The notes under the pieces were generated by a model. It saw nothing but the letters and a program-made list of their open reading frames with translations. It had not been told where the DNA came from and ran no database searches. Shown here piece by piece: positions 12,236 to 46,639 of a stretch of DNA of 64,000 nucleotides. Origin of the DNA: Cymodocea nodosa (Eukaryota > Streptophyta > Magnoliopsida > Alismatales > Cymodoceaceae). The stretch spans positions 12,000,501-12,064,500 of the forward strand of contig CM072344.1 of NCBI GenBank assembly GCA_036874045.1, in the 5' to 3' direction. Both the position numbers and the translations under genes were made by a program. Each line of letters begins with the position of its first letter. Within the stretch, counting starts at the first letter, position 1.

Positions 12236-12256
12236 ACTTAAGCGTAAATCTTCACC

Positions 12257-12757: not shown

Positions 12758-12766
12758 TTGTCGATT

Positions 12767-12784: not shown

Positions 12785-12952
12785 AATTTAGCAGAGACAA
12801 AAATTAACATAACTACTACACACCCTCGTGGAGTTAAGGCATAACTCAACAGACTAAGTTTGTTGAGTTAAAAATTAACTCTACGATACTATTAACTTAA
12901 AATAAAAATAAAAACATATATAAATACAGATAGTTGCTTCAAATATGCTGCT
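12785..12952 (-). other. Spacer between Gag and F-box with hairpin words
   Basis: A short non-coding spacer. It contains GTGGAGTTAAGGCATAACTC and TTTGTTGAGTTAAAAATTAA, members of the recurrent GAGTTA/TAACTC inverted-repeat set. Element B has the same spacer at 47,600-47,770. Confidence 0.6.
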
Positions 12953-15241: not shown

Positions 15242-17491
15242 TTAATCTCTATGCCTAAGTTCATCTACTTCCTTCTAGAGTTTTTCTAATTGCTGCTCTA
15301 ATTGATTTATCCTCTCTACTACTCATGTAATTTCTCTAGAAGGTATAGCTAATTCTGCAGCTACAAAATTTTTGTATTCTTTCACTGAAATGGTTCCAGA
15401 TCTTATCCTTTTTGATGTCCATTTAGTGAAATCAATACTATCCACCATCAGTAGTGGAATCAAATCTCCATAAAATAATTTCTTCTTCACTGTTTTCAGC
15501 TTGGAGATAAAAACTACAGACCAATTTATTTGGATCTTATTTACAACTGCATACGTGGCCCATTTGACAAATTGACTTAATTCTATGTCATGGCCCTATC
15601 GTTGATAGACATTCTTAATCAGAATGTTAGCTACCATGTGTGCTTTACCATTTAAATGCTTCAATCTGTTTAATAATGGCACACCAGGATTGATAGCTAA
15701 ACAATCCTTAATTTGCTGCTCAGTCCATTCAACTGTAGTTGTATCTTCCAAAATTTTTGTTCCTTCATTCTTTAAACCAAATATGTTGTGGAGAAGCTCT
15801 GGTGTTATCTGTACATCAGCTTCCTCCACATTTGAAATTAATCCTCCTTCTCCTTCTCTTAAATTTGCATAGAAATAGGGCACTAAATTCTCATATACTA
15901 CATGCCCTCTTTCTTGAGATATAAATTGCAGTAGACCTTGGAATTCAAATAGATCTTTGATTTCTTGCATTCCATCCCAATTTACTGGTCTACTGTAAAT
16001 AATATCGTAACCCCTTATTTCTTGGTATTTGGTATAAGCTTCCTGACTACAAAAATGTACTTCATTCAAAATTGTTGTTTCAATCAGGTCAGGAAGGTGA
16101 CTTTGTTTCTCCAGAGGGGTTTGCTCTTGCTCTTCCTCTAGCATAGGCTGCATTTGGACATTCTCTTCAGATTCCTGAATTTTTACTTTTGCTTCTGTCT
16201 GTGGTGGTGAGCCAGCAAAACTCTCCACTCTATCTTGAATTCTTTCCATAATTTGCTGAAGAGTTTCTTGCTCTTCAGTGGAATCTATGAAATTATTTTT
16301 GTCCAAATGGCTTCTTTCAGCCTCTTCATTTTCTACTCTTTCTTCTTCCTCCTAACTACCAATTTGTTCTGTTACTGTTCTTTCTGATTCTGTAACAGAT
16401 TGGGATGGAGTCATGGGCAATTCAATTTCTGCCCTAATTTTTGTTTCTTCTTGTACAGACTGCAAACTAATTTCAGCCTAATTTTTTTCTTTTCTTTGCT
16501 CCTCCTACTCCTCCTTAGATTCGGATAGCAGGTTAATAAAAATCTGCTCCACAGGCCCTGTAAAAATTGGTACTTCAGATTTAATTTCTTCATAATCAGA
16601 CACTTTTTCTTTTTCTTTCTTTTTTCTGATTAGTTGTGCCTATTCTTCCTCTTCATCTTCTAAAATTAAATCTACAAAAATAGGCTCTGTAGGCTTTCAA
16701 ACCACAGGTACTGGCTCTTCTTGTTTAATTCTTCCAATAATTTCCGGTCTCGAAGGACCAGCTTCAGCTTCTTTTGCAGCATATCTAACAGCAGTTTTGG
16801 CAGTAGCTTCTTGATGCTGTTCCACTTTAATTTTATATTGGGCTTTCAACTTTTCTGCAACCCTCTTTTTGTACAGTGCATCAAACAGCAGGTGTGCTTT
16901 AGCCACTACCAAATCTTTTGATTCTCCTTGGTTTTTTCCAACTTGAACCAGTTCTACAAATTCTCTTATTTCTTCTTCAGTCGAAGGCCCCATCATTTTT
17001 GCTCGTGCCAATGGCTTAAATGGTGGAACTGAAGGTCTAGACTGCTGCTCCTCAGGAATAGGTCTTTCAGCAGTTGGTTCCTCTCGTTCTTCAGTTGCCT
17101 CTTCATTTGCTTTCATTTCTTGCTCCTAGATCACCTGTTTAGCTTGTCTACAGATTCATCTTTTGAACCAGAGTCGGGACTTATGCTGGATTAATTCTAG
17201 GGCAACTTCATTACTTGGCCTTATTTGTCTTTCCTTGCTTACAGCTATTTCTGTTGCTATTCTGATTCATGTTTCCATTATTTGAGGTATTCATATATCC
17301 ATATCTACTAAATCTCTTCTAAACTTGAAAAGTTCTGATTCTACCTTCTGTAGCTCTTTCTCTTTTGTCGTATTTCTGATCTTCTGCCGCGTGTGCCACT
17401 CTTCTGATTCCTTCAGAAATTCTGATGTATCAACAACATCTTCCCAGAATTCAAGCATCATCTTCATCATCGTGGAGTTAGACAACAGCAT
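15242..17491 (-). pseudogene. Accessory ORF region downstream of integrase (element A)
   Basis: About 2.25 kb of mostly open sequence encodes an accessory protein. The N-terminal helical part has KEKELQKVESELFKFRRDL and RPSNEVALELIQHKSR. A long Glu/Gln-rich middle follows, then a C-terminal domain (15,242-16,100) with IKDLFEFQGLLQFISQE, PYFYANLREGE, ITPELLHNIFGLKNEGTK, LNGKAHMVANILI and KKLFYGD. The same blocks occur in the post-pol ORF of the copia elements (36.3-37.0 kb, 3.9-4.3 kb, 44.2-44.9 kb). The domain resembles the plant Transposase_32 family (from memory). Function is unknown; the position is where env-like ORFs sit in Athila. It is a fossil with several breaks; the best open stretches are 15,596-16,306 and 16,697-17,116. 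Confidence 0.8.
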
Positions 17492-25397: not shown

Positions 25398-26526
25398 TTG
25401 GATTTGTTAACTTCTGTTTTTACTTAATTTATCTTTATGCCTATATCACTGAATTCATTTTTAAAAGTAAACAAACAACCTTTCACACAAATTAGATATA
25501 AATTCCAATTTGTGTTTTAACTGTAAGTGCATAGTGTCTATTGTATTAGTGTGCAAGTATAAGTCGATCCCATAGGGAATTGCTTAAGAATTGTAAACTG
25601 TTTCGTTTTTAACAATCAAATTTATATATTCAATAAGATCTTCATTGAGTTACAGTTAACTCAACGGATTAAGTTCGTTGAGTTATGGCCAACTCAACAG
25701 GTCGTGGACTTAAGTTAACTCCACGAGCCAACCTTTTCTATTTAATACTACTATTTACAAAGGAATTCGGCAAACCATTGGGCGGTTCCACAGATTGTAA
25801 ATAACATCAATTAAGCTCTTTAATGTTAGTAAACACTGGGTTTATCATTAGGCAATACTAACATTTAGATAATTCAAACAATAACCATTAAAATCTTTAA
25901 GTCTTTTGAACGAACCAATTTCAGTAAACTGTAAAACTAAAACAAACATAAAACAATCACAACACTGACAAAGATAACATTAATCACGATACAAAACAAA
26001 CAATACAACACTCAAATACAAAATATAAACAAAGATAAGTTGTTTTTGGTATTTTCATTTTGATATGAGCATGGACATGGGCGAAAGGTGAAGTGTAAAG
26101 TAATCTCAGTCGACAGTAAATACTTCTGTCACTACATGCGATGCGATTACACCACTGAAAATTAAACCACCTACAATTCTTTCTCCTCTCCCTATAGAAT
26201 TGCGAGTCTAGAATTGCAAAATGATCTCCTCTTCAGCATACAGGCATCAACCCGAAGCCAAGGCTAGAAGCTTTACGATCTTCTGAGATATGAGTCAGCG
26301 CTTGGTGAAAATGGCTTTCCTTCCCGCAACGCGATCACTCCTCACAATGGTTGTTAGGCACTGTGTTTGGCTCAGAATCGACTTGACATCAGGAAAGTAT
26401 CCTCAAAGACCTCCGATGGTTGGTGATTATGGTGGTGGTGATGATGGTTGGTGTGGTACTTTAGAGAATTGTCGATGCTGCCTGCAGAAAGCTTAGTGAT
26501 CCTCCTCTACACACATTGACCATACC
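25268..26526 (-). repeat. 3' LTR of gypsy element B, left piece
   Basis: Starts TGATTGGTTACCCAGCAACG and is collinear with 57,579-58,815. It begins (U5 end in element sense) with four tandem units of about 32 bp resembling the primer site. It is cut at 26,526 by copia C1 and resumes at 39,107. ATACC (26,522-26,526) is the target duplication of C1. Confidence 0.9.
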
Positions 26527-27848
26527 TATTGAGTATTTTTGTTTTGATGATGTGTGCTGAATGAAAATAATCATATTTGCTCAATTACTATTGCTTGTGA
26601 AAAGAAATTAAAATCATCAATTAATACAGAAAAAACTTACTGATATAAATACTTGTCTGTATTTGGATCTGAAGTTAATATCTAGTCGTTTCATTGCATT
26701 AATTTCTTATTTAGCTAAACGTTAAGTTAACGTGTGTTTTTATTGAAAAGCATGATATGTTTTAATGTTATATCTTCTGTATCATGAACAGTGTACGTTT
26801 AGACAACTAGTTAAGTTAGAGTTTTGTTTGTATAGAGTTCACGTGAGAACTCGTTAAGTTAGAGGCTTAAACGTTAAAATAAGTCACGTGATAACTCGTC
26901 AAGTTAGTGAGTAAAAGAAGAGACAAACTCGTTAAGTTAGTGTTATACACGTGGTAAAATTATAAGTTACGAATGTTGTATTGTATCACGTGAGGTGCAC
27001 ATGTTTAACTCGTTAAGTTAACATAACTAAACGCGTTGAGTTGCTATATTGAACACTAAGGCAACACGTTAGGTTAGTGTTACAAACTTAAGTTGTTATT
27101 TTTGCACGTGGTAAAATTCTTATTATAAAAACATTTGTTTATTACTGGTTCGTTGAGTTATCATAACACAACAGAAATGGTTCGTTGAGTTATCATAACA
27201 CAACGGAGATGGTTCATTGAAATAGCATAACACCACGGACTTAGTTCGTTGAGTTAGCTACAGTACTTGTCACGTGAAATGGCATATAAGGAACTCGTTA
27301 AGTTAGAAACGTTAAGTTATATATATACTTGTGTTACTCATTTAGTTAACATTAAAGTAACGACTTCTTATTACACTGATGAAAAACTTTTGGACGAGAA
27401 AGTTTATTTTGCAGGAAATTTTTCAGAGATCCAAGACTGATGATTAAAGGAAATTCAAAATATAAACGTGGGAAAAATTGAAGTATCAGAGAAAAGCAAA
27501 TTCGGTGAAGCATGAAAAGACAAGATATTCGTCACTAAAGAATTGCTGAAGAAGAAAAAGAAGAAGAAGAAAGATCTCAAACAGGGAGAAAAGTTTTAAA
27601 TTCCGTAAATTAGTTTTCTCTGTTTGTAGTTATGAAATTGTTTAGATGATACATAGTATCGAAATATAATTGCATCTACAATTTCTGAGGAGAATTGAAT
27701 TGTATATTGTAATTGAAACCTTGAATAAAAATGATTTTATGAAAACAATGTCTCGACTTGTTTTTGAGTTTTAAAGTTTCAATTATATTTCAAAAAATAT
27801 TAAAAATACACAATTCACCCCCCTCTTGTGTAGCCATACGATCCTACA
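26527..27848 (+). repeat. 5' LTR of copia element C1
   Basis: Runs from TATTGAGTATTTTTGTTTTG to ACGATCCTACA. The first two bases are TA in both LTRs, while the related C2 has TG. Contains many CGTTAAGTTA/CACGTGA words and GGTTCGTTGAGTTATCATAA repeats (27,145-27,260). The PBS follows after two bases. Confidence 0.93.
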
Positions 27849-27862: not shown

Positions 27863-28048
27863 TTTGTGAATAATCTTTGATATAAAATCGATACCAACTT
27901 ATTTAATATCATTGCTTATTCTACCTTCCTTGTTTTTAAACGAAAATTAATATCTGAGCATACGTTTAACTTTCTTGATTTAAGGCTCAAATTGTTTTAA
28001 AGTTTTTAGACTATTTAAAATCAAATAGGTTGAAAAATCTAAGGTAAA

Positions 28049-30298
28049 ATGGCTACTAGAAATGGTAATTTTTCTTTATATGAAGGCCAAAATCTTAATC
28101 GTCCTCCTTTATTTGATGGAATACATTTTGAATATTGGAAATATAGGATGACTGTTTTTCTTCAAAGTATAGATCATAAATTGTGGTTCATGATTTCTAA
28201 ACCATATACTCCGTTAACTACTCCTTATAATACTTGGACAATTACTGAAAAAGAAAATGAAACTTTGAATGCTAAGGGCTTAAATATTTTATTTTGTGCA
28301 TTGAGTTATGAACAGTTCAGTAAAGTGTCGGCATATAAATCTGCTTATGAGGTGTGGCATGCATTAGAAGTTTCACATGAAGGTACTTCTCAAGTTAAAG
28401 AGACAAAAATAAACATGTTGATTCATAAATATGAACTCTTTAAGATGCATGAAGACGAAAATATTTCTGAGATGTTTTCCAAATTTCTTGATATCATAAA
28501 CTCTTTAAAATGTTTAGGAAAGAATTTTGAACAGAAGGATTTGGTGAGGAAAATTCTCAGATCCCTAAGTTCTAAATGGTCTCAGAAAGTAACATCAATT
28601 GAGGAATCACGAGATTTAAATGTTTATACTATAAATGAACTTATAGGAAATTTAACAGCTTATGAAGTTCAATTAAATGAATCATTGAGTCACAACAAAC
28701 TAAAAATGAAGAAAGAAATAGCCTTCGAAATTAATTCAGATTCTGATATATCTACTGATTCTGACAAGGATTTGATTTTGCTGACTAGGAAATTCAAGAA
28801 AGCTAGGAAACAGCAAAGGAACAAAAATGATAAACCCTCAATGTTAAGATCATTGAATGACAAAAATTCTTCATCCAGAAAGTATGTATGTTACAACTGT
28901 AAGAAACCTAGACATCTTTCTCCAAATTGTCCTATGAGGAAAAATGAAAAGCAAAGTAGGACAAATCAGAAGAAGACAACTCAGAAAACTTAGAAAAAGT
29001 TTTACAAGAAAAAGGCTTTGAAGGTCACTTGGGATGACACGTCTGAAGAGTCTGAATCTAAGGAATCAACATCAAAATCTTCACATTCAGAAGGAGAACA
29101 AGAGTTAGAAGATGTTGCTCATGTGTGCTTCATGGCAGATGAGTCTGAGGTAATATTTGATCCTGAAAGTCATTCAGATTTCAACTTTGATGAATTATTA
29201 TGTGCTTATCATGCATTATTACAAAAACTTAAAGTATGTAAACTGGAAAATAAGAATATTAGAAAATCTTCATCCATTATGGAAGAAGAAAATTGTTTCC
29301 TGTCTACTACTTTAGAAAAGTTTAAATGTGATAATGAAAATCATGCTAGAGATTTGCAAAAATTTAGATTTAGTGAATGTATCCTGTATGAACAAATACA
29401 GAATATAAATGCTGAAAAATTAAAGATAGAATCTGAAAATGAAATGTTGAGAAACAATATAAATGAACTTGAATTAGAGATAGATAAATTAAAACTGAGA
29501 GAGCAAGATTTAAATTCTACCATTGAGAAAAGGAATTTAAGTTAAACTAAGTTAGACAAACTAACTAGTACCCTTGCGGTGTCTTATAAATTTGGCTTAG
29601 GATTTGATTATCCTGAATATCCTGAATCTCAAGCCAATAAAGGATTTATTAGTTGCAGTTCAAGTAAATCTAAGACTAAAATTTCTTTTATTATGAAACA
29701 AGGTAATAAATATGTAGAAGTAGGTACTTCAAGGGATGAATCATGTAGTAATAATGTAAATCAATGTGATTTGTCAAATTGTACTTCTAACATGACTATA
29801 AATGTTTCTAAAAATCTTGTTTCTTGTTCTGGAAATTCAGTTTCTAATGTTTCTAAAATTTCAGACAATTGTAGTAAATTGAAAATTCAGAAACCTGAGC
29901 ATGTAATTCAATACACTGGTATTAGACCAATTACTCATTCTGCATGTGATAAAACAAAAAATTCTTGTGTAGAAAAAGATTTTGTATGTACGAAAAATTT
30001 TAATACAAGTACAAAATCTTGGTATGAACTTACAAAAATGTATAAGCATGACCAAAATAAATTAACATCTGATAAAAATATGTTTGGTCTTGATTATACT
30101 ACATCTGAAAACAAAAAGAATGATTGCAAAAGCAATAATGCTATATGTGAGTATGAAGCTAATGATAAATCAATAGTACTTACAACTAATAAGAATATAA
30201 ATGGTAATGTTAAACTATTTTTAAACAAAAAGAAGAAATATGCGTTTAATGAACTTGGTCCTCAACAACATTGGGTACTAAGAAAAAGTTTTTCTTAA
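28049..30298 (+). pseudogene. Copia gag with long coiled-coil tail (C1)
   Basis: The first open stretch (28,049-28,993, 314 codons) begins MATRNGNFSLYEGQNLNRPP and has LFDGIHFEYWKYRMTVFLQS (residues 21-40), the N-terminal signature of Sirevirus gag. It also has ALSYEQFSKVSAYKSAYEVW and a CCHC zinc knuckle at residues 281-294 (CYNCKKPRHLSPNC). The following stretches (29,018-29,545; 29,579-30,298) are acidic, then strongly coiled-coil (EKLKIESENEMLRNNINELE), then Asn/Ser-rich, ending in GPQQHWVLRK just before protease. Gag makes the particle and binds RNA. A long coiled-coil extension is known in Sireviruses. The start is the first ATG in context after the PBS. The fossil is broken. Confidence 0.88.
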
Positions 30299-30301
30299 TT
30301 T

Positions 30302-30673
30302 GTGTTGCAGGAGGAAACAACATCAAAATGGATCTTGGACAGTGGAGCGTCAAGTCACATGACCAGACAAAAAAGTCTATTACAAAATTTTACAAATACC
30401 ATGAAAGGAAGTGTAACATTTGGAAACAAAAGCAAAGATAAAATTATAGGTATGGGCAATGTTCAAATAACTCCTACTTATGTTATTTCGAATGTACTAT
30501 ATGTAGAAAACCTAGGATTTAATTTGATGAGTGTCATAAAACTAACTAAAAATGGATATTATGTAGTGTTTGAAGATAATGTATGCAAAATAATTGATAA
30601 AAATACAGATGAAATTAAGTTTATTGCTAAAAGAAAAGGTTCTGTATGTATTTTATCTTACCTTCTGGTGTAG
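30302..30673 (+). pseudogene. Copia protease (C1)
   Basis: An open stretch with KWILDSGASSHMTRQ; the aspartic active site DSGAS is at residues 13-17. It continues with VTFGNKSKDKIIGMGN, NVLYVENLGFNLMSVIKLTK and a tail joining the integrase start (FIAKRKGSVCIL). The enzyme processes the polyprotein. It is part of the broken pol. Confidence 0.88.
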
Positions 30674-31905
30674 TTGATTTAAATTCATGTTTGCTAACTG
30701 AAACTAGTGATGCATATCTATGGCATAGAAGGATTGGGCATATAAATATGAGACTGTTACATAAACTATCTAGAAAACATTTAGTGAGAGGATTACCAAA
30801 GATTAAATACTCAAAGAACTTTATGTGTGATGCATGTGAGTTAGGTAAACTTCACAAGAACTCTTTTAAATCCAAAACTGATATTTCAAGTAAGAGAGTC
30901 TTAGAACTTATACATATGGATCTATTTGGACCAACAAGAATCATGAGTCTTGGTGGTAAACAGTATGTATTTGTTTTAGTAGATGACTTCTCTAGATACA
31001 CTTGGGTATATTTTCTAGCATCTAAGACAGAAGTTTTTGAAAAATTTAAAATGTTTTGCAATTTTGTTCAAAATGAGCAAAGTGTCTCTATTCAAAAACT
31101 TAGGAGTGATCATGGAATTGAATTTGATAATGATCAAATGGATAACTATTGTAATGAGCATGACATTAATCACAGATTTTCTTTTCCAAGAGCACCATGT
31201 CAAAATGGTGTTGTTGAGAGAAAGAATAGATCACTTCAAGAAATGGCTAGAACTATGTTGAATGAACATAAGTTACCTCAAAATCTTTAGGCTGAAGTAG
31301 TAAATACAGCTTGTTATGTTATTAACAGAAGTCATTTAAGACCTCATGTTAATAAAACTCCTTTTGAAATTATGTTTAATAGGCTTCCAAAAATTTCCTA
31401 TATGAAACCATTTGGCTGCAAGTGTTTTATTCTTAATACTAAGGATAAAAGGGATAAATTTCAAGCCAAATCGGATGAAGGAATTTTTGTAGGTTACTCT
31501 ACTATAAGTAAAGCCTATAGAGTATATAACAAGACTTCTAGGACTATTGAAGAAACCCTCCATGTAAGCTTCAATGAAAATTCTCTTAGAGAATCTCAAT
31601 CTAAAGCTGATAATGATGATATGATCAATTTTCCAAATGAGTTAGAGATCAATAGAGAGATTGATGATTTATTTGAGAAAATCAAAAATATGAACTTAAA
31701 TGATCAAACTAATGATGAAAGTGATGCACTTTCAGATGTTGATGAGAATATTGAGGAAAATCAGAGAAATTGGCGTTATTCTTCATCACATCCCATTACT
31801 CAAGTCATTGGTAATATTAATGAGGGAGTTAAAACTAGAGCTTCAGTAAATTTAAATAGTATGTGTATGTTTGTTTCTATGGTGGAACCAAGGAATATAT
31901 AAGAA
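30646..31905 (+). pseudogene. Copia integrase (C1)
   Basis: The 214-codon stretch at 30,646-31,290 has the HHCC finger (H27 and H32 in LWHRRIGHIN, C61 and C64 in MCDACELGK). It also has the catalytic core D92 (MDLFGPTR), D155 (LRSDHGIEF) and E191 (GVVERKNRS), again with a 35-residue D-E spacing. The second stretch (31,372-31,902) is the copia integrase C-terminus (KPFGCKCFILNTKDKRDKF, DEGIFVGYSTISKAYRVYN). The enzyme inserts the cDNA, here with a 5-bp duplication. The fossil is broken, but all key motifs can be seen. Confidence 0.9.
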
Positions 31906-33416
31906 GCATTATCTGATGAAAATTGGATAGTGGCAATGCAAGAAGAACTAAATCAATTCATCAGAAATGATGTATTGGAATTAGTTTCTCCACCAGAAAA
32001 TCAGTCCATAATAGGTACAAAGTGGATCTTTAGAAACAAAACTAATGAAACTAGTCAAATTATAAGGAATAAAGCTAGATTAGTTGCACAAGGGTATACA
32101 TAGGAAGAAGGATTAGATTATGATGAAACATTTGCTCCTGTGGCTAGGTTAGAAAGTATTAGAATATTATTGGCCTATGCTTGTTATATGGATTTTAAAT
32201 TATATCAAATGGATGTAAAGAGTTCATTTCTAAATGGTTTAATTAATGAAGAAGTCTATGTAAAACAACCACCTGGATTTGAAGATATTAAAAATCCTGA
32301 CTTTGTGTATAAATTGAAGAAAGCCTTATATGGTTTGAAGCAAGCACCTAGATCATGGTATGAAAGATTGTCTACTTTTTTAATAGAAAAAGGCTATATC
32401 ATCGGAAAAGTGGAACATACTCTATTTATTAAGAGAGATGGTAAAGATCAAATTGTTTTTCAAATATACGTGGATGATATAATCTTTGGAGCAACCTCAG
32501 ATAAGTTGATAGAAATATTCTCTAAAGAGATGACTAATCAGTTTGAAATGAGTATGATAGGAGAACTTTCATATTTTCTAGGACTTTAAATTAAGCAAAT
32601 GGATAAAGGTATATTTTTAAATCAGGAAAAATATGCAGATGAAATGCTTAAGAAATTTAATTTTAATGATACAAGGATTCGAGGAACTCCTATGAGTACT
32701 ACTTTAAAGTTAGATATTGATGACATAGGAAAATCTATAGATCAAAGAAAATACAGAAGTATGATTGGTTCTTTACTTTATTTGACTGCTAGTAGACCTG
32801 ATATTATGTTTGCTATGTGTGTTTGTGCTAGATTTCAATCTAATCCTAAAGAATCACACTTAATTGCAGTTAAAAGAATATTTAGATATATACAAGGAAC
32901 TAAAAATTTCGGACTGTATTATTCTATGGATAGTTCAATAGATCTTATAGGATATACTGATGCTGATTATGCAGGATCTAAATCTGATAGAAAGAGTACC
33001 AGTAGCACATGTCAATTATTGGGAAATAATTTGGTGTCATGGTTTAGTAAAAAGCAAAACTGTGTAGCACTTTCTACTACAGAAGCTGAATATGTTGCTG
33101 CTGCACTATCTTGCACTCAGATTCTGTAGATAAGGCAAACTTTAGAAGATTTTGGATTATCTTATGATACAATTGAGATTTATTGTGACAGTAGTTCTGC
33201 AATAAATCTTTCTAAAAATCCTGTATTACATTCAAGAGCAAAGCGTATAGAGGTTAGACATCATTTTCTAAGAGATAACGTAATTAAAGGAAAAATTAAA
33301 TTAGAATTTGTGTCTAGTAAAAATCAATTAGCTGATATATTTACAAAACCTCTAGACAAAAATACATTCTGCAACATTAGATTAAATTTAGGTATTTGTA
33401 GGCTATGTGATGTGTA
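31906..33416 (+). pseudogene. Copia reverse transcriptase and RNase H (C1)
   Basis: RT signatures in order are GTKWIFRNKTNE, ARLVAQGYT, QMDVKSSFLNGLINEEVYVK, KKALYGLKQAPRSWYERL and the catalytic YVDDIIFG (residues 110-117 of the 32,140-32,589 stretch). The next stretch (32,599-33,129) holds the connection (YRSMIGSLLYLTASRPDIMF) and RNase H (YTDADYAGSKSDRKSTSS, ALSTTEAEYVAA). It is followed by a tail with YCDSSSAINLSKNP and QLADIFTKPLDKN that ends near 33,416. Wording fits the Sirevirus clade. The fossil is broken. Confidence 0.92.
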
Positions 33417-34967
33417 AAATGCTTAAACTCCACATAAAAAGATAAATATTATTGATGATGTTGTTCACCTCATAGATATTATATACTTATTATAAATATC
33501 TAAAGTAATATCTAAACTGCTGCTTAAGATACTATGTATTTATTGTAAAATCATAGTAGTATCTTATTGATTTTAAGTAGTTTATCAATTTTAATAGTTT
33601 TTACGATTTTAAGTGGAAGTGTAAATGAAAAACATTAAATACTTCTAACATTCTAAAATTTTGATTAAATGTTTTCTTTGAATCAAGGAAAATTCATATG
33701 ATCATGCATAAATTTGACTTAATTGATTAAACTTGTAGAATAAGTTATATGTAACTCATCTTAAACTGTTAATCAAAAGTATAAGCTTATTGAAACTGAT
33801 CCATATTCTCAATACAATCATAGAAGTAAAAATTGTATGAGATTTGTGTTTTATTGCATCTGTATTAATGGAATACATATATACTGTGCTTAAAATGAAA
33901 AGTGCTTACAAAGTGAAAATCTTTGAGAGTTTATTGATCAATTTGATCACGAGCCTTTTGTACTTGAGCAGATAGGTATGTAAGGATTGTTGTCCTAAAA
34001 AAGGATTCTTTAAATCTAGCAACCTAAGGTCCTGATCAGATCTGGGATTGTTGACTGAAAGCTCATTACACGGGTACATTAGAAAGTTCTTGTATGATTC
34101 AAGCTTTTCAAACTAACTTTTAAAGAAAATTATCAATATTTACTGTTTTAAAAAGAAAAAGTTGTTTCATTAATTATAGATATCTTTGAATCACATATAG
34201 TTTATACCAATATGACTACTAATTTATTGAATCAACATTAGTACTTTTGAAAACGTTTATTTGAGATACATTCTTTTATTCTCCTTGAATTAATCGAATT
34301 GAGTTCAAAGTTGTGTTTTGATTCATATACAGTAGGAATTGATTCTGAAATCATTTTTGATGATGTCAGGATAACAGAAGTCTCTGAAAAGAAAATGTAA
34401 AAGTATAGTTATACTTAACATCTATTGTCACTACAAGTATATTTTGATTGACTATATTTGAAGTATATTTGTAGGGGGAGGATTAACAATGTCGAAAACA
34501 AATTAATATAATTTAGAATACAAATCTTAGTTAATCTGAATTAATGTCCTCTTAAAATCTTGATGAAATAATTTAAAAAGACAAATAAACTATTTTAGAT
34601 TCAAAGGACAAAATGTTCAAATAGTTTACAATGTTCTCAAGATAATGTTAAGTTTAGCATGTGTGTTGTTTTCGGAACGTTTCAGTTGGAAGCATTTGAA
34701 AATTGGTGTACTAACTAGACGTTATGTTAGATAAGGTAACGTGTAAAACTGCCTCTAGACAGCGTTTTACTCGTTAGGTTAGTTAACTCAACGAGTTATA
34801 CTTGAATATTTCGGGTACTTTGATTGAATAAACTTTATTCAATATTTATTTTATTTCTAAACCCGACTTCTCTTCACATTGAGTTATACGCCTAAAAACC
34901 CTATTTAAACACTTATTACACGGGCACTTAGGTTATTTGTAAACTTTGTCAAGAAAATCTTTCCCGC
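33417..34967 (+). other. Post-pol non-coding module of C1, shared with gypsy A and B
   Basis: No coding region was found. The part 33,480-34,350 is homologous in the same sense to the region before the 3' LTR of gypsy A (11,050 down to 10,080) and gypsy B (about 41,000 down to 40,060). The best block is 34,017-34,106. It ends close to an internal PPT-like tract TTTGTAGGGGGAGGATT (34,468-34,484). From 34,640 to 34,870 there are TAGACGTTATG-type words and an AACTCAACGAGTTATA hairpin. Confidence 0.8.
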
Positions 34968-34991
34968 TTGTTGCTGTTACAACCTGCGACG

Positions 34992-37261
34992 ATGGTCTCC
35001 AAGTTCTATAAAGGTCGTGGTAGAGGAAAAGGCAAAAGCAGAAGAGATGCAAAAGGAAAAGAAATAGAGAGTGATGAAGTTCCACGTACTTGGTTCAAGA
35101 AAATATTTCGAGTGGACAAAAGGTTAGAAGAACTTTATAGAGATTACTTCTTTTCTCAGGATATATTAGATGAAGTTAGACAAGAACTTCAACATACTGA
35201 TGCAAGTATTACATACATTGGTATTCGAAGTAAATATGATAGAGAATACAGAATGAAATGTGCTGAGATTGCATTTTTGGAACAGTATGCAAAATATTTG
35301 GAAAAAGGTGTAGGTTCATCAAATAGAACTCCTCAAACTCCTATAAACGGTACAAGACTACATGTATTTGAGGAAGAGCATGAATCAGCTATCCCTACTC
35401 CTTTATATTCAAAACAAGTAGAATCAAATATTGTTGTAGACAAAACAAAAGTTGATAGTCTTCGAAAGGCCGTTGCAATAGAAAGTGCCTTAGAAGAATT
35501 AAAGCAGAAAACTTTTATGGAGAAATTTGAAAAGAAAACAACAATACTTGAAAAGGAGAAACAGAAATATTATAGAAGAAGGAAAGTCAGAAAAATTATG
35601 TCTAAGGAAACAAAGTCTTTTGAAAAAGGAAAATCAGATGAAAATTTATTTTCAAAGGACAATGTATGTCTAGACATTGTACCTTATTGTGCATCTGATA
35701 AACTCATCAGTTCCGAACACACTGAAACTGATGAAGATAATGAGACTTTATTTTCCCTTGCTAGAAAACTTGAGAAGAAATCCAAGTCAAATATGAGCTC
35801 AAGTTTTTCTATTAGTACAAGTCTTGATGATGTAGAAATTGACAAATCAGAGCATCAGGCACCTGACATTGAACAAGTTATTGCAGATATAATTGACAAT
35901 GTAGAGGTAGTAACTAGTTCAAAGGTTGAATTGTCTAGAGTAGCAGATATTGAAAATGTTAAGACTCCAGAAGAGCTAAAAGTTAACCAGCCTTCTACAG
36001 AATCTATAGAAGTAGAGTCTGAGAATTCACACCATGAATCAATGGAATTATCTGTTGAACAAAATGAACAATTACAGACAGATACACCGGCTGTAGAATT
36101 TGTGGAAAATTGTACTCTGAACATTCTATAGAGACTGAACAGATGAATGTTGCGCATATTGACAATGTTCCTAACACTGTTGAAGCTAAAGAATCAAGCT
36201 TACTTGAGCAGCTTCAAGATAATATTTTGGAAGAGGAACAACATGACATTCATTTTGCAGAAGAGCTTCCTGAAGATGAATTAAACTCTGAATCACGGCT
36301 TTAGGTATCACCTTCTTTGTATACAATATTAAAAATTCAAGGTAATGCAATTCATTTTAGATCTGAAGAAGCATTGCAGAAATACAATAATCTGATTACA
36401 TGTCAGATTCTGCATGTTCGTCCAATAAAATTCAGAAATTTGATGGAAATAAGAGATCTGCTTGAGTTTCAAGGCCTCATTAAATTCTTGCCAGTAGGAA
36501 TGAAATGGAAGCAATACACAGAGCTTATTGCAGCTTTTTATAGCAATCTGGACAAGAATGGAAATTTTCTAAAAACTCAAATAAATGAATAGGAGTTTAT
36601 ATTGTCTCCTGAGTTAATTTTTGAAGTTTTAGGATTAAAGAATGAAGGTGTTGTTGTTACCAACAGATTTGACATAATAAGACAATTGGAATGGAACATT
36701 CAGTCTTTATCAAAAATTCTAGATGTATATTCTGAAATGAGATTAATGGAAAATCTGAATGCAGAGGCAAGGTTTATTGCAAATATATTGCATGCAAATT
36801 TATTTCAGAGAGTTGGACACAATATGGAAGTCAGCAGAAGTTTTTTATATGCAACTTATAGCTTGCTGAATAGCATTCAAATCAATTGGCTTGATGTTTT
36901 CACTTCTCAACTATAGCATATGAGTTCAAAGTTATTTTATGGTGATACTGTATGTAGACTCATTGCAAGTCAATTGAATTTATCCGATTGGCCCTCTAAA
37001 ACTAAAGGCATGAGAGCATTTAGTGTCAAAGATTTGCAAAAATTCTAAGCCATGTATAAACCTCAACGACAACAACAACAATAACAACCTGATACAGACC
37101 ATATACAACAACAACAACAAAGTTATTCAGTTCAAGCAGAACAGCAAACTAAGCTACCTCCTGACTTAGATGTAGTGCTTAACGACATCAGAAATGATAT
37201 TAGGCATCTAGGAGATAAAATATGTAATGCTATAAGTGATATACTTAGGAGGGGTACATAA
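34992..37261 (+). pseudogene. Accessory post-pol ORF region (C1)
   Basis: About 2.27 kb encodes a protein that starts with a very basic stretch (MVSKFYKGRGRGKGKSRRD), possibly RNA/DNA binding or a nuclear signal. A helical block follows (RLEELYRDYFFSQDILDEVR), then a long Glu/Ser/Thr-rich middle, then the conserved C-terminal domain (36,317-36,916). That domain has LLEFQGLIKFLPVG, IAAFYSNLDKNG, LSPELIFEVLGLKNEGVVV, LNAEARFIANILHANLFQRV and SKLFYGDTV, and a Gln-rich tail follows. The C-terminal blocks match the accessory ORF of gypsy A and B and of copia E and C2. The longest open stretch is 34,968-36,131. The start at 34,992 is chosen because the basic stretch follows it. Function is unknown. 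The fossil has a few breaks. Confidence 0.82.
37064..37122 (+). repeat. CAA-repeat tract in C1 accessory ORF
   Basis: Two runs of CAACAACAACAA encode a Gln-rich tail after the conserved domain. The same feature is found in element E and C2. Confidence 0.85.
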
Positions 37262-37743
37262 CTATTTTTGTTTGTTTCTGAATACAAAATGTAATGTTTG
37301 TATTACTTGTTTGATTCATTGAACAATACATTATTTTGTAAATGTATTCAATTATTATTCTTGTTTATAGAAATCGTTGTTGTAATTCTCTTATATACAT
37401 ATATATATTCTCTGTAATTATCTTTTTAATTAATGACAAAAAGGGGGAGAAATATTATAAAAAGATGATTATGATCTTAATTGCATATATATATTATAAA
37501 AGGAGATGCTATTTAAATGGTTATTGTAATTTGACAGATGATAATTAGAAAACTAATACTTATATAATTATTGACATCTGAGAGTTTTAGTTCTGAGAGG
37601 TAAAATTTACACAAACAATAGAAATAAGCTTAAATGAACTTAAGTCAACAAACAAGTTTGTTGAATTAAAAGTTAACCCAATGAAGGTGCTTTGTTGAGT
37701 TAAACATATTTCATAATTGATTTAATATGGTTTTGTCATCATC

Positions 37744-37757
37744 AAAAAGGGGGAGAT
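37744..37757 (+). other. Polypurine tract of C1
   Basis: CATCATCAAAAAGGGGGAGA directly before the 3' LTR is the wording I recall for Sirevirus PPTs. Confidence 0.9.
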
Positions 37758-39101
37758 TATTGAGTATTTTTGTTTTGATGATGTGTGCTGAATGAAAATA
37801 ATCATATTTGCTCAATTACTATTGCTTGTGAAAAGAAATTAAAATCATCAATTAATACAGAAAAAGCTTACTGATATAAATACTTGTCTGTATTTGGATC
37901 TGAAGTTAATATCTAGTCGTTTCGTTGCATTAATTTCTCATTTAGCTAAACGTTAAGTTAACGTGTGTTTTTATTGAAAAGCATGATATGTTTTAATGTT
38001 ATATCTTCTGTATCACGAATAGTGCACGTTTAGACAACTCGTTAAATTAGAGTTTTGTTTGTATAGAGGTCACGTGAGAACTCGTTAAGTTAGAGGCTTA
38101 AAGGTTAAAATAGGTCACGTGATAACTTGTTAAGTTAGTGAGTAAAAGAAGAGACGAACTCGTTAAGTTAGTGCTATACACGTGGTGATATTATAAGTTA
38201 CGAATGTTGTATTGTATCACGTGAGGTGCACATGTTTAACTCGTTAAGTTAGCATAACTAAACGCGTTGAGTTGCTATATTGAACACTGAGTCAACGTGT
38301 TAGGTTAGCGTTATAAACTTAAGTTGTTATTTTTGCACATAGTAAAATTCTTATTATAAAAACATTTGTTTATTACTGGTTCATTGAGTTATCATAACAC
38401 AACAGAAATGGTTCGTTGAGTTATCATAACACAATGGAGATGATTCGTTGAGATAGCATAACACCACGGACTTAGTTCGTTGAGTTAGCTACAGTACTTG
38501 TCACGTGAAATGGCACATAAGGAACTCATTAAGTTAGAAACATTAAGTTATATATATACTTGTGTTACTTGTTTAGTTAACATTAAAGTAACGACTTCTT
38601 ATTACACTGACGAAAAATTTTTGGACGAGAAAGTTTATTTTGCAGGAAATTTTTCAGAGATCCACGACTGATGATTAAAGGAAATTCAAAATATAAACGT
38701 GAGTTACAATGTGTGTGTTTTGATGAAGGAAAAAGGAAAGACGTGGAGAAGTGGAAAACCGGTAGTGGTTAAATGTGAAGGATATGCATGAAATGAAGAT
38801 ACAGTATAAAAGGCATAGAATTCTTATTGATCAATTTATCCTTGCACACAAAACAAAAAATCTTTTCAAGGATCAAACCATCCCTACACACCAAAAGAAA
38901 AATCCATGGTATCAAAATATAATTGCATCTACAATTTCTAAGGAGAATTGAATTGTATATTGTAATTGAAACCTTGAATAAAAATGATTTTATGAAAACA
39001 ATGTCTCGACTTATTTTTGAGTTTTAAAGTTTCAATTATATTTTAGAAAATATTAAAAATACACAATTCACCCCCCTCTTGTGTAGCCATATGATCCTAC
39101 A
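37758..39101 (+). repeat. 3' LTR of copia element C1
   Basis: Runs from TATTGAGTATTTTTGTTTTG to ATGATCCTACA, followed by the ATACC duplication. It matches the 5' LTR closely over the first kilobase but differs in the right third (about 38,700-38,910), where it resembles the C2 LTRs more (TATGCATGAAATGAAGATAC). Confidence 0.92.
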
Positions 39102-39106
39102 ATACC

Positions 39107-39822
39107 CGTCGACCACACCCTTTTCTTCTTTTTCTTGTTTTCTTTTATATTTTTTCAGTGGTAACTACTTCTACTTGAATGGTCAGTTGAATTTCCTTCA
39201 TTCATATCAACGACGATGATTTCTTCTCCCTTCGACGAGTGAATTCCTACGTGATACATGCGATCGTGGTTTTTTTTCTTCCAACTGTCCTATTTTTGCA
39301 ACCGCTATAGTGACATATTAGAAAATAAATGGTCCGTGGAGTTACAGATAACTCAACGGACAACGAACTTGCTTCGTTAATTTAACTATAAAACACGTGC
39401 AATAAAGAAATAAGCCACTAACATAACGCGTTACCTTAATGTGTATTCATGTAACTCAACACGTACAGTTATGCTAACTTAACGAGTTAAAGATGTGCAT
39501 CTCACGTGATATACTAAAGCATTTAAATTCAACACGTGCATAATTCTATCTTAACAAGTTCAAATATTTTACATACTTAAGAACTTAACTATCCGATGCT
39601 TAGATGCATTTCGGATACTTAAGAATTTCATAGCCTGCAATTTACCAATAGTTTAGAAATGTACTAAATTAACATTAATTCCCTAGAATTATGCAGGTTC
39701 TTTCATTAAAGCATATAACAATGCAATTATACCATAATGGCTTAATTCTCATATGATAAGCTAAATATTATGCAATTAACCATCATTTAACCGTTAATAT
39801 TATACACTTTTCATTCTAAACA
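39107..39822 (-). repeat. 3' LTR of gypsy element B, right piece
   Basis: Continues the LTR interrupted at 26,526 and is collinear with about 58,820-59,524. It ends TTTTCATTCTAAACA. It is followed by the terminal PPT of B (39,823-39,836). Confidence 0.92.
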
Positions 39823-41545
39823 CTCCCCCCATACCTACATTTTGCTAGTCCCTTAGCAAACTAAGATCTAATTAATTGGTCTTTCTAAAAGTGCTAGAAT
39901 TAACTCTTCTTTTTTCTTAGGTTCAGCATAAGAACTTGTATTATTATATAGATATTCTATATGTTTCAGTAATATTGTTTTCTCTTCTTCAATCTGCAAA
40001 TATACTTAGAATATATGCAAATTACATACAAAGTATATCATCATCACATAGGTGTTAATTATATTATTGTTTGTTCTGAATTTCATCATCTATCATCCTG
40101 AATTTTCCAATAAGATTTCTAGAAGAAATTTCAACAACATATGAATCAATGTACAATCCAATTCAATCTGATTAAGACAAGTAGAATAAAGAATTGTATC
40201 TCCATAAAACAACTTCAAAAGTCAATTCTAGATTCATATTTCAACAATTCTAGATAACAGAAAATATACTCGATTCATAAGATATCTGTATTTCACAAAA
40301 CACTTGTATCTTTTCAGAACAGTATATGTATTTTTGTACTTTAAAAGTTAATTTGACAAGCTTGAATCATACAAGAGCTTTCTAATGTACCCATGTAACA
40401 AGCTTTCAGTCAACAATCCCAGATCTGATCAAGATCTTAGGCTGCCAGATTTCAAAAGTCTTTTTTCAGGTCAAGAATCCTTACATACCTATATGCTCAA
40501 GTACAAAAGGCTCATGATCAAATAAGTCAATAAACTCTTAAAAAAATTTAAAAAAAAAAAAACAAAATATAAAAAAAATTAATCACATACTGTATATGTA
40601 CGTATTTCATTAATGCAGATGCAATAAAACACCAATCTCATATAGTCCTGCTTCTATCATTGACTAAAAATATGAATCCATAACAATAAGCTCATACTTT
40701 TTTTGTAATTTAATAAGATCTATACATAAATCATTCTACAAGTTCAATCAGTCAAATTAAATATATCTTTAATCATATGTGTTTCATTTAATCTAGAATT
40801 CACATCTCAGCTCTTTCAAGACTTCAGATAATTTACTAATTTTTCATTAAGCGCTCTGATTTCATTTTAAAATCGTGAAATTGTTAAACTCATGAAATTC
40901 AGAAAAAAAACATAAGATACTATATCTAGATTTGCATAAATAGTAAATTCTATAGCATCTTATATAGCCTTCTAAATATAATATTCAAACAATTACAGTT
41001 TATAATAAAATTTTCAATTTTCACAAAACTTTGCAGTACCATTCTAATTCCTTTAATTAACAAACTTACATGGTTGTTACTTTAATTACCTCCCCCCCAT
41101 ACCTACATTTTGCATTGTCCTTAATGTAAAAGATTTGACAATAAATACAGTAATTGTAGCAGGCATGAATACACTTTCGTTGATTTAGCACTTAACTCAA
41201 CGAATGAGTTTAAATCTAAATTCAGGATAAGTAATCAATTACATACCATGTTTCGTTTGTTTCTCCTTTTGCATATTCCGATTTTTGATTCTGAAAAACT
41301 TTTTATACATAGATAAAAGCAGAATATATAACAAAATAACATTTAACAGATATTGATAAATCAGTGTCTTGTGTGGAACCTAGGCTCCTATGCCTTTGGT
41401 GGTTCAAAAGCAAGCCAATTGGTTTCCTAGCACAGATACTAATAAACTAGATTGAATTTTTTTTTATTTTTAAATAAACTAAAACTAAAATTTTTCTAAA
41501 AGTAAATGTAGAAAACACACAACATTACAAGCACAAAATCACAAC
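39823..41545 (-). other. 3' non-coding region of B: PPT, shared module, internal PPT
   Basis: No coding region was found. It holds the terminal PPT (39,823-39,836), the module shared with copia C1 and gypsy A (about 40,060-41,000; best block 40,359-40,447), and the internal PPT-like tract with a CATTAAGGACAATG hairpin (41,089-41,127). A spacer follows up to the end of the F-box ORF. Confidence 0.8.
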
Positions 41546-41741: not shown

Positions 41742-43491
41742 TGTAGGATCGTATGGCTACACAAGAGGGGGGTGAATTGTGTATTTTTAATATTTTCTGA
41801 AATATAATTGAAACTTTAAAACTCAAAAACAAGTCGAGATAGTGTTTTCATAAAATCATTTTTATTCAAGGTTTCAATTACAATATACAATTCAATTCTC
41901 CTCAGAAATTGTAGATGCAATTATATCTCGATACCATGTATCATCTAAACAATTTCATAACTACAAACAGAGAAAACTAATTTGTGAAATTTAAAACATT
42001 TCTCCCTATTTGAGATCTTTCTTCTTCTTCTTCCTTCTTCAGCAATTCTTTAGTGACGAATATCTTGTCTTTTTGTGCTTCATTGAATTTGCTTTCTACT
42101 GATACTTCAAATCTTCAGTGACAAAAATCTTACATTTTTATGCTTCATTGAATTTTCTTTCACTTGAGAGATTTTGCCCAAAGAGGTGTTTTTGATCCTT
42201 GAAAAAGATTTTTCTTTTGGTGTGCAGGGATGGTTTGATCCTTGAAAAGATTTTTCTTTTTGTGTGCAAGGATGGTTTGATCAACGAGAACTCTATGCCT
42301 TTTATACTGTATCTTCATTTCATGCATATCCTCCACGTTTAATCACTACCAGTTTTCCACTTCTCCACGTCTTTTCTTTTTCCTTTATCGAAACACACAC
42401 GTTCTAACCCACGTTTATATTTTGAATTTCCTTTAATCATCAGTCTTGGATCTCTGAAAAATTTCCTGCAAAATAAACTTTCTCGTCCAAAAATTTTTCA
42501 TTAGTGTAATAAGAAGTCGTTACTTTAATGTTAACTAAACGAGTAACACAAGTATATATATATAACATAACGTTTCTAACTTAACGAGTTCCTCATGTGC
42601 CATTTCACGTGACAAGTACTATAGCTAACTCAGCGAACTAAGTCTGTGGTGTTATGCTAACTCAACGAACTAGCTTAACCTTTCTTTCAGAAGGTTAAAT
42701 GATAACTCACCGAAAACAGTTTAAGTTTCTGATAGTCATAGATGTAAGTCACCGAAAAACTCTTTATATTATAAAACTAGTGAGACACGTGTCAAGACCT
42801 GAAAACATGACTTAAGTTACCTTTCGGATAGTTACGACTGTAAGTCTCTGAAAAACTTTAACTCACCGATTCAGTAATAAACAAATGTTTTTATAATAAG
42901 AATTTTACCACGTGCAAAAATAATAACTTAAGTTTATAACGCTAACCTAACACGTTGCCTTAGTGTTCAATATAGCAACTCAACTTGTTTAGTTATGTTA
43001 ACTTAACGAGTTAAACATGTGCACCTCACGTGATACAATACAACATTCGTAACTTATAATTTCACCACGTGTATAACACTAACTTAACGAGTTCGTCTCT
43101 TCTTTTACTCACTAACTTAACGAATTATCACGTGACCTATTTTAACCTTTAAGCCTTTAACTTAACGAGTTCTCATGTGACCTCTATACAAACAAAACTC
43201 TAACTTAACGAGTTGTCTAAACGTGCACTATTCATGATATAAAAGATATAACTTTAAAATATATCATGCTTTTCAATAAAACCACATGTTAACTTAACGT
43301 TTAGCTAAATGAGAAATTAATGCAACGAAATGAATAGTTATTAACTTCAGATCCAATACAGACAAGTATTTATATCAGTAAGCTTTTTCTGTATTAATTG
43401 ATGATTTTAATTTCTTTTCACAAGCAATAGTAATTGAGCAAATATGATTATTTTCATTCAGCACACATCATCAAAACAAAAATACTCAACA
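41742..43491 (-). repeat. 3' LTR of copia derivative C2
   Basis: On the plus strand it runs TGTAGGATCGTATGGCTAC to AAAAATACTCAACA, followed by the PPT complement ATCTCCCCCTTTTTGATGAT. It is 1,750 bp long, longer than the C1 LTRs. Confidence 0.92.
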
Positions 43492-43989
43492 ATCTCCCCC
43501 TTTTTGATGATGACAAAACCATATTAAATCAATTATGAAAATATGTTTAACTCAACAAAGCACCTTCGTTGGGTTAACTTTTAATTCAACAAACTTGTTT
43601 GTTGACTTAAGTTCACTTAAGCTTATTTCTATTGTTTGTGTAAATTTTACCTCTCAGAACTAAAACTTCTCAGATGTCAATAATTATATAAGTATCAGTT
43701 TTCTAATTATCATCTGTCAGATTACAATAACCATTTAAATAGCATCTCCTTTTATAATATGTATATGCAATTAAGATCATAATCATCTTTTTATATGATT
43801 TCTCCCCCTTTTTTTCATTAATCAAAAAGATAATTACAGAGAATATATATACATATATAAGAGAATTACAACAACAATTTCTGTAAACAAGAATAATAAT
43901 TGAACACATTTATAGAAAAATGTATTGTTCAATGAATCAAACAAGTAATACAAACATTACATTTTGTATTCAGAAACAAACAAAAACAG

Positions 43990-45170
43990 TTATCAACCCC
44001 TCCTAAGTATATCACTTATAGCATTACATATTTTATCTCCTAGATACCTAATATCATTTCTAATGTCGTTAAGCACTGCATCTAAGTCAGGAGGTAGCTG
44101 GGTTTGCTGTTCTGCTTGAACTGAATAACTTTGTTGTTGTTGTATATGGTCTGTATCAGGTTGTTGTTGTCATTGAGGTTTATACATGGCTTGGAATTTT
44201 TGCAAATCTTTGACATTAAATGCTCTCATGCCTTTAGTTTCAAAGGGCCAATTGAATAAAGTCAATTGGCTTGCAAGGATTCTACATACAACATCACCAT
44301 AAAATAACTTTGAACTCATATGCTGTAGTTGAGGCATAAATACATCAAACCAATTTATTTGAATTCTATTCAGCAGGCCATAAGTTGCATATAAATAGCT
44401 TCTGCTGACTTCCAAATTGTGTCCAACTCTCTGAAATAAATTTGCATGCAATATATTTGCAATAAACCTTGCCTCTGCATTCAGATTTTCCATTAATCTC
44501 ATTTCAAAATATACATCTGGAATTTTTGATAAAGACTAAATGTTCCATTCTAGTTGTCTTATCATGTCAAATCTGTTTGTAACAATACCTTCATTCTTTA
44601 ATCCTAAAACTTCAAAAATTAACTCAGGAGACAATATAAACTCTGGTTCATTTATTTGAGTTTTTAGAAAATTTCCATTCTTGACCAGATTGCTATAAAA
44701 AGCTGCAATAAGCTCTGTGTATTGCTTCCATTTCGTTCCTACAAGCAAGAATTTAATGAGGCCTTGAAACTCAAACAGATCTCTTATTTCCATCAAATTT
44801 CTGAATTTTATTGGATGAGCATGCAGAATTTGACATACAATCAGATTATTGTATTTCTGCAATGCTTCTTCAAATCTAAAATGAATTGCATTACCTTGAA
44901 TGTTTAATATTGTACACAAAGAAGGTGATACCTGAAGCCGTGATTCAGAGCTTAATTCATCTTTAGGAACCTCTTCTTCAAAATGAATGTCATGTTGTTC
45001 CTCTTCCAAAATATTATCTTGAAGCTGCTCAGGTAAGCTTGATTCTTCTGCTTCAACAGTGTTAGGAACATTGTCAATATGCTCAACATTCATCTGTTCA
45101 GTCTCTATAAAATGTTCAGAGTTCAATTTTTCCACAAATTCTACAACCGGTGTATCTGTCTGTAATTGTT
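43990..45170 (-). pseudogene. Accessory ORF, C-terminal part (C2)
   Basis: Open stretches 44,536-45,135 and 44,170-44,502 encode the acidic middle and the conserved domain of the accessory protein: RDLFEFQGLIKFLLVG, IAAFYSNLVKNGNF, LSPELIFEVLGLKNEGI, LNAEARFIANILHANLFQRV, SSKLFYGDVV. A Gln-rich tail follows. The sequence is nearly identical in wording to C1. It is the only protein-coding part left in this small derivative. Confidence 0.85.
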
Positions 45171-46639
45171 CTTTCTTCTTCCTTCTTCAGCAATTCTTCA
45201 GTGACGAATATCTTGTCTTTTTGTGCTTCACCGAATTTGCTTTCTTCTGATACTTCAAATCTTTAGTGAAGAAAATCTTACCTTTTTATGCTTCACTGAA
45301 TTTTCTTCCACTTGAGAGATTTTGCCCAAAGAGGTGTTTTTGATCCCTGAAAAAGATTTTTCTTTTGGTGTGTAGTGATGGTTTGATCCTTAAAAAGATT
45401 TTTCTTTTTGTGTGCAAGGATGGTTTGATCAATGAGAACTCTATGCCTTTTATATTGTATCTTCATTTCATGCATATCCTCCACGTTTAATCACTACCAA
45501 TTTTCCACTTCTCTACGTCTTTTCTTTTTCCTTTATCGAAACACACACGTTCTAACCCACGTTTATATTTTGAATTTCCTTTAATCATCAGTCTTGGATC
45601 TCTGAAAAATTTCCTGCAAAATAAACTTTCACGTCCAAAAATTTTTCATCAGTGTAATAAGAAGTCGTTACTTTAATGTTAACTAAACGAGTAACACAAG
45701 TATATATATATAACTTAACATTTCTAACTTAACGAGTTCCTCATGTGCCATTTCACGTGACAAGTACTGTAGTTAACTCAACGAACTAAGTCTGTGGTGT
45801 TATGCTAACTCAACGAAACAGCTTAACCTTTCTTTCGAAAGGTTAAATGATAACTCACCGAAAACAGTTTAAGTTTCGGATAGTTATAGATGTAAGTCAC
45901 CGAAAAACTCTTTATATTATAAAACTAGTGAGACATGTGTCAAGACCTGAAAACATGACTTAAGTTACCTTTCGGATAGTTACAACTATAAGTCTCCGAA
46001 AAACTTTAACTCACCGATTTAGTAATAAAAAAATGTTTTTATAATAAGAATTTTACCACGTGCAAAAATAACAACTTAAGTTTATAACGCTAACCTAACG
46101 CGTTGCCTTAGTGTTCAATATAGCAACTCAATGCGTTTAGTTATGTTAACTTAATGAGTTAAATATGTGCACCTCATGTGATACAATACATCATTCGTAA
46201 CTTATAATCTCACCACGTGTATAACACTAACTTAACGAGTTCGTCTCTTCTTTTACTCACTAACTTAACAAGTTATCACGTGACCTATTTTAACCTTTAA
46301 GCCTTTAACTTAACGAGTTCTCACGTGACCTCTATATAAACAAAACTCTAACTTAACGAGTTGTCTAAACATGCATTGTTCATGATACAGAAGATATAAC
46401 TTTAAAACATATCATGCTTTTCAATAAAACCACTCGTTAACTTAACGTTTAGCTAAATGAGAAATTAATGCAACGAAACAACTAGTTATTAACTTCAGAT
46501 CTGATACAGACAAGTATTTATATTAGTAAGCTTTTTCTGTATTAATTGATGATTTTAATTTCTTTTCACAAGTAATAGTAATTGAGCAAATATGATTATT
46601 TTCATTCAGCACACATCATCAAAACAAAAATACTCAACA
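45171..46639 (-). repeat. 5' LTR of copia derivative C2 (partial)
   Basis: Matches 42,015-43,491 and ends AAAAATACTCAACA before the GGGAT duplication. It is shorter than its partner. No PBS is recognisable next to it. Confidence 0.88.

Follow-up and report, generated by a model that had tools for sequence, protein, structure and literature searches.

The window, as we call the whole 64,000-nucleotide stretch of Cymodocea nodosa DNA analysed here, holds LTR retrotransposons of the copia and gypsy superfamilies. The copia element C1 (26,527-39,101, plus strand) is inserted within the gypsy B 3′ LTR and flanked by the target duplication ATACC at 26,522-26,526 and 39,102-39,106. Between a 5′ LTR (26,527-27,848) and a 3′ LTR (37,758-39,101), which are 95.9% alike over their main 944-bp stretch, C1 carries a gag-pol frame (28,043-33,417) with Retrotran_gag_2 and with rve before RVT_2, the copia order; the final part of this frame gave no Pfam match and is, to judge by its position, presumably RNaseH. 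An accessory ORF follows, with its N-terminal part at 34,932-36,128 and the C-terminal domain of its protein, containing one internal stop, at 36,305-36,913. The octamer AGGGGGAG is found in the C1 linker at 34,473, 37,442 and 37,748. The first of these (34,473-34,480, plus strand), a Sirevirus-type polypurine tract (PPT, the kind of site from which synthesis of the second DNA strand is primed) upstream of the accessory ORF, is intact in seven of nine C1 copies, while the last (37,748-37,755) starts 10 bp before the 3′ LTR and is surrounded by an inverted repeat (CATCATCAAAA at 37,737, its reverse complement at 37,773). C1 is assigned to copia by RVT_2 and the domain order, and its likeness to Sireviruses lies in the octamers, the inverted repeat and the accessory gene. 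As Sireviruses are described in the available text of PMC2829016, which defines the PPT octamer and ascribes an env-like gene to many of these copia elements, C1 resembles them in the octamer that begins 10 bp upstream of its 3′ LTR, the inverted repeat around it, the two further octamers between pol and LTR and the accessory gene after pol. It differs from them in its gypsy-like linker, in an LTR that starts with TATTG rather than TG and in having no CGG-CCG boxes, a repeated motif that the same partial text reports in 13 of 21 Sireviruses; CGG-N(0-2)-CCG gave no match in the C1 5′ LTR and linker. The TATTG start is set by the target duplication, and AT is present there without a complete AT/TG attachment site.

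Gypsy A and gypsy B are members of one family, both on the minus strand, and A has RVT_1 and reverse transcriptase before integrase, the gypsy order. The A 3′ LTR (7,983-9,833), directly preceded by the PPT-like TATGGGGGAAG, is 94.7% alike to the 5′ LTR (23,768-21,901), and the family has the PBS TGGCGCCGTTGCCGGGGAA, which we take to be of Athila type. An accessory (env-like) ORF in A (15,599-16,351, minus strand) matches PF20167 weakly (E 4e-4, 20.8 bits, where the curated cut-off is 45), and nearer the 3′ LTR is an F-box region (11,621-12,787, minus strand) made up of an F-box ORF at 12,260-12,787 and the next ORF. A second copia element, D, occupies the window from position 1 to about 5,130; it is a relative of C1, to which the end of its pol is 76% alike over 418 columns.

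Between pol and the accessory ORF, C1 shares a non-coding module with both gypsy elements in the same sense. C1 33,695-34,378 aligns with gypsy B 40,779-40,089 at 74.2% identity over 702 columns (400 bits, E 4e-113), and C1 33,695-34,425 with gypsy A 10,819-10,036 at 68.6% over 807 columns (310 bits, E 6e-86), compared with at most 47.3 bits from 200 dinucleotide shuffles of C1 33,480-34,931. The three-way alignment claimed in the first-pass annotation thus lies far above shuffles. Its best 90-base block, in which about one base in ten was said to differ, is 93.3% identical to gypsy A (C1 34,017-34,106), and the weaker matches noted on either side of the block are real, as five of the six C1 pieces outside it match A or B independently (best E 6e-4, 4e-32, 3e-29, 1e-11 and 1e-12). 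Alignment no better than shuffled AT-rich sequence outside the core, the outcome that would have spoken against the claim, was therefore not seen; the sixth piece, 34,426-34,931, gave only a 22-base match to A and B (E 0.018). Upstream, a profile of the corresponding region of ten gypsy copies finds a weak extension in C1 at 33,486-33,626 (5.1 bits, reached by none of 300 shuffles, of which 78 scored, the best at -3.8), and its counterpart in gypsy A reaches about 11,040, close to the limit of about 11,050 given earlier. Downstream, profile matches stop at the PPT octamer at 34,473-34,480, and the C1 part after 34,425, taken alone, does not rise above shuffled sequence, 2 of 300 shuffles scoring as high. 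A multiple alignment hinted at some 60 bp of homology further downstream, for which the profiles give no support, and the C1 sequence after the PPT, considered as a possible gypsy LTR, matched that of B over just 49 bases (E 5e-5), so that we do not claim it as one. We accordingly place the module at 33,486-34,480 in C1 (plus strand), weak at 33,486-33,694, strong at 33,695-34,425 and weak again up to the octamer; at 10,036-10,819 in gypsy A (minus strand) by alignment, with the weak extension to about 11,040; and at 40,048-40,779 in gypsy B (minus strand) by alignment and profile. The module does not abut the gypsy 3′ LTR, as had been stated, since about 200 bp separate the two in A (10,036 to 9,833). 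When the internal region of C1 was compared with those of A and B, no match outside the module exceeded 38 columns, and pol gave no extended nucleotide match.

The position of the module was compared among A, B, L033-L036, L001-L008 and loci among L010-L029, sites picked near known copies or from the best matches. In each of the nine distinct C1-type copies the module is preceded by the end of pol and a linker and followed by the pre-accessory region, so that the placement between pol and the accessory ORF first described for C1 holds throughout; in all ten gypsy copies it lies downstream of the F-box region, with an LTR about 200 bp beyond it. This bears on the possibility that the module is an independent mobile repeat inserted into both families. 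As a discrete block of about 1 kb whose relative place differs between the families it might be taken for one, but its position is fixed in 19 of 19 copies, and a profile search of about 234 kb, mostly near C1 copies, found no free copy beyond an A-rich match of 58 bp in L013. Separate insertion in each family was thus not seen in this limited sample, for which the upstream module edges were also inspected by eye, and we regard such a repeat as very improbable. Within 200 kb of sequence adjoining known C1 copies (L010-L029) there are five occurrences of the module, four of them in gypsy and one in a C1 copy, and three 8-kb stretches (L030-L032) matched no library piece. The searches behind these samples covered a genome of 374.6 Mb and scored, for the C1 module, the best 40 of 3,895 first-look candidates and, for the gypsy module, the best 40 of 4,701, numbers that are not copy counts.

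Conservation is uneven along the module. In an alignment of three C1 and six gypsy copies, identity is 97-98% among C1 copies, 86-93% among gypsy copies and 73-77% between C1 and gypsy, and a core (33,921-34,125, plus strand) differs between C1 and gypsy by about 6-8%, compared with about 24-29% in the flanks. The core columns that differ number 12 of 201 and 14 of 186, and single flanking windows differ by 13-37%. Majority sequences of the gypsy subfamilies differ less in the core (2.7%) than in the flanks (5.9%); individual gypsy copies compared among themselves show no clear identity peak in the core. The core may be either constrained or exchanged again later. Its predicted RNA fold is not beyond shuffles (z 0.43, -1.27 and 0.31), covariation in it is almost nil (1 of 54 pairs), and an RNA family search of 33,000-39,200 returned one sub-threshold match, outside the module. 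In a tree of the module, C1 forms a long branch (0.28) that joins between two gypsy groups, which would fit a single exchange that preceded the spread of the sampled gypsy subfamilies. Descent from a common copia-gypsy ancestor, or convergence under constraint, would fit a core that is better conserved than its flanks between C1 and gypsy, yet 69-75% identity in AT-rich non-coding DNA, set against a pol with no extended nucleotide match, and the retention of at best a trace of the module in copia D make this origin exceedingly unlikely.

The sharing extends to the LTRs and the accessory proteins. Sense-matched stretches of 100-285 bp are common to copia and gypsy LTRs: the C1 LTR part at 26,803-27,110 (plus strand) has counterparts in gypsy LTRs, with bases 276-550 of the C1 LTR 71.6% identical to the gypsy LTR of L014 over 285 columns and bases 481-583 identical at 89% over 103 to that of L024, while bases 253-455 of the D LTR are 76.6% identical to the gypsy LTR of L023a over 235. 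The C-terminal domain of the C1 accessory protein corresponds to gypsy A 16,351-15,599 and to the copia D accessory domain (3,777-4,250, plus strand). Identity is 38% over 164 amino acids between A and D (E 3e-35), 38% over 156 between C1 and D and 34% over 159 between A and C1, and 300 shuffles, of which about 260 scored, gave at most 24.6 bits. Judged by their sequences, the accessory proteins of D, gypsy and C1 are homologous. Such likeness across superfamilies stands out because, in the part of PMC1142308 available, env-like proteins within the Athila lineage are described as showing little similarity to one another. A homologue search with the gypsy A accessory ORF found none among 212 candidates, and one with the C1 accessory ORF found one among 5,412, a 289-amino-acid protein at 90% identity. 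Taken with flanks that are about 24-29% diverged, the LTR pieces and the homologous accessory protein argue that the sharing is older and wider than one event.

Copia D provides a second chimera. The window's D, which is without the full module, has a PPT octamer upstream of its accessory ORF (1,482-1,489, plus strand) and represents the form without gypsy U3, here D1; two copies, in L020 and L027, make up the form D2. The two forms are about 78-86% alike to the left of the pre-accessory PPT, and D1 likeness ends 3 bases after the octamer. By profile, likeness to gypsy LTRs then starts 5 bases after the octamer in L027 and 14 bases after it in L020 (35 bases by blastn). This patch of about 340-375 bp (profile E 3e-61 and 3e-52) is 80% identical over 384 columns in L027, and 77% over 346 in L020, to the L023a LTR, which is itself followed by gypsy gag and pol. 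It begins 66-105 bases into the gypsy LTR and contains neither LTR end, which sets it apart from an inserted solo LTR; D1-like sequence returns about 400 bp beyond the PPT. The two forms thus resemble the states before and after an exchange, one of whose junctions falls at the PPT. L020 retains the octamer unaltered and L027 has AGGGGGAT in its place. Upstream of this, at 3,041-3,369, L020 also bears a separate piece of a gypsy LTR end, which is absent from L027. Eight further D copies, drawn from the best matches and closest to the window's D, are without the U3 patch; five have the octamer followed by D1-like sequence and three have no octamer. In the D2 linkers the C1 profile detects a degraded core-like stretch (E 0.0007 in L027 and 0.005 in L020 in a linker-only search, where the window's D gave E 0.18). 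It is the best C1-profile match outside module copies, a weak one with E values of 0.07 and 0.11 when the window and the loci were searched, and the gypsy profile over the same sequences did not find it.

These junctions also bear on exchange at the DNA level, in which nested insertion or gene conversion among neighbouring copies would have produced chimeras that then multiplied. Elements are densely nested in the window, C1 itself sitting inside an LTR of gypsy B, and nested insertion is offered as an alternative for centromeric gypsy elements in PMC4079200, so far as its text is available. The D2 patch, by comparison, is internal and sense-oriented, with copia sequence on both sides and one junction at the PPT, and the module is about 25% diverged and therefore not a product of local conversion between C1 and B. 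We consider a DNA-level origin unlikely.

The first-pass annotation had read the module as an exchange of 3′ ends. Exchange between copia and gypsy is supported by extended nucleotide likeness that is confined to 3′-end or LTR-type regions, by the fixed positions and by D2 as a second chimera; a strict 3′-end exchange is not supported in C1, where the piece lies inside the element, with pol on one side and the accessory ORF on the other. We lean towards the view that the module is one of several 3′-region or LTR pieces passed between Athila-like gypsy and Sirevirus-like copia elements by template switching at or near PPTs, and our best reading of the whole is repeated copia-gypsy exchange with the PPT as a favoured junction, probably via template switching, a mechanism that we infer. 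In one cell, reverse transcriptase would copy RNAs of both superfamilies, presumably co-packaged, pausing at the PPT on one RNA and continuing on the other. G-rich PPTs are present in both families, each of which has its extra parts between pol and the 3′ LTR. Such a switch would have placed gypsy U3 next to the copia PPT in D2; the gypsy-like block of C1 lies on the opposite side, with its end at the PPT that precedes the accessory ORF. For C1 a switch from PPT to PPT is not an exact explanation, because the aligned module end in gypsy lies about 150 bp before the gypsy PPT, and the C1 junctions are less sharp than those of D2 since neither an intermediate element nor a module-free C1 relative was found among the copies sampled. 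A transfer from gypsy to copia is better supported for the U3 patch than for the module, because the patch is a truncated LTR; for the module, transfer from copia to gypsy is possible given the weak core-like remnant in the D2 linkers.

The captured piece in C1, placed between pol and the accessory gene, is probably a control or leader region of that gene, and the gypsy U3 sequence of D2 is probably likewise a candidate control sequence. A promoter or leader role for the module is plausible because of a TATA-like CATATATAC near 33,877, a donor-like GTATGTAAGG (8 of 9 C1 and 8 of 10 gypsy copies), an acceptor-like TTTGYAG at the block end in most copies and the place upstream of the accessory gene. 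The candidate 5′ splice donor in the C1 core is GTATGTAAG (33,976-33,984, plus strand; found in the same proportions), and a candidate 3′ splice acceptor, TTTGTAG, ends at 34,474. These sites would also suit independent capture of the same host sequence by both families, for example a gene leader and first intron, and the gypsy F-box ORF may be a captured gene. Such a capture seems to us improbable, as the other shared pieces are element parts (LTR U3 and accessory protein) and no host copy was seen among the two sets of 40 best candidates, a minority of which were read with their surroundings. The available text of PMC2829016 describes repeated boxes upstream of the Sirevirus env-like gene and favours an internal promoter, none being identified there. 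A more speculative extension of template switching, which we offer tentatively, is that the PPT serves as an exchange point to one pool of 3′-end parts (linker module, U3 enhancer and accessory gene), supplying Sirevirus-like copia elements with an internal promoter and leader intron for the accessory (env-like) gene, that is, with a captured gypsy 3′ end.

To our knowledge, copia and gypsy are usually seen as lineages that recombine only within themselves. Recombination of LTR elements is already known: PMC4079200, in its available part, describes mosaic centromeric retrotransposons of grasses that arose by exchange between subfamilies, with template switching or nested insertion proposed. 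The elements described here are likewise mosaic, but those exchanges are among related gypsy elements and these between superfamilies, and it is the superfamily-crossing reach, the PPT junction and the shared accessory gene that are unusual. No copia-gypsy exchange is described in the available part of PMC9744471 or in the titles and abstract openings of the literature found, which is no proof of absence as most subscription journals were outside reach. Here the copia-gypsy border appears to be crossed by LTR U3, an accessory gene and non-coding sequence of control type, which occur throughout the copies sampled. If this is true, pol trees do not describe the regulatory and accessory parts of such elements, and expression of the Sirevirus env-like gene becomes a directly testable question.

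Gypsy A resembles Athila-type elements, as given in the available portions of PMC11728184 and PMC1142308, in the place of its accessory ORF after integrase, which may be PF20167-like, and in its PBS. The gypsy elements here differ from that type in their 3′ part, where the accessory ORF is followed by the capsid part of gag, then by the F-box region and then by the module. The gag is thus split: the capsid part (PF03732; 13,316-14,284 and 56,985-57,512, minus strand) precedes the F-box region, and a zinc-knuckle part, recognised by eye without a Pfam match, follows the 5′ LTR. By tblastn over the window and L009-L036, the capsid part was found in A and B of the window and in L010, L013, L024, L026 and L029, each time with accessory or F-box sequence adjacent; the zinc-knuckle part lay elsewhere, in B of the window and in L014, L017, L022, L023, L024, L025 and L028; gag upstream of pol, as in Athila-like elements, is represented on the 5′ side of the sampled gypsy copies by the zinc-knuckle part only. 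The F-box ORF (PF00646, E 3e-10) lies between the gag part and the 3′ LTR, and DNA matching it occurs in the same place in L013, L015, L024 and L029. One AGGGGGAG octamer is present between module and LTR in gypsy A (9,923, minus strand), where five other aligned gypsy copies differ. Elsewhere in the window, a short C1-type element without gag-pol (42,025-46,639, minus strand; LTRs about 95.5% alike) matches C1 between its LTRs solely in the end of the accessory region and is likely a deletion derivative, and 140 bp at 60,382-60,521, 83-85% like the 3′ part of gypsy LTRs, lie beside a minus-strand copia remnant in the opposite sense.
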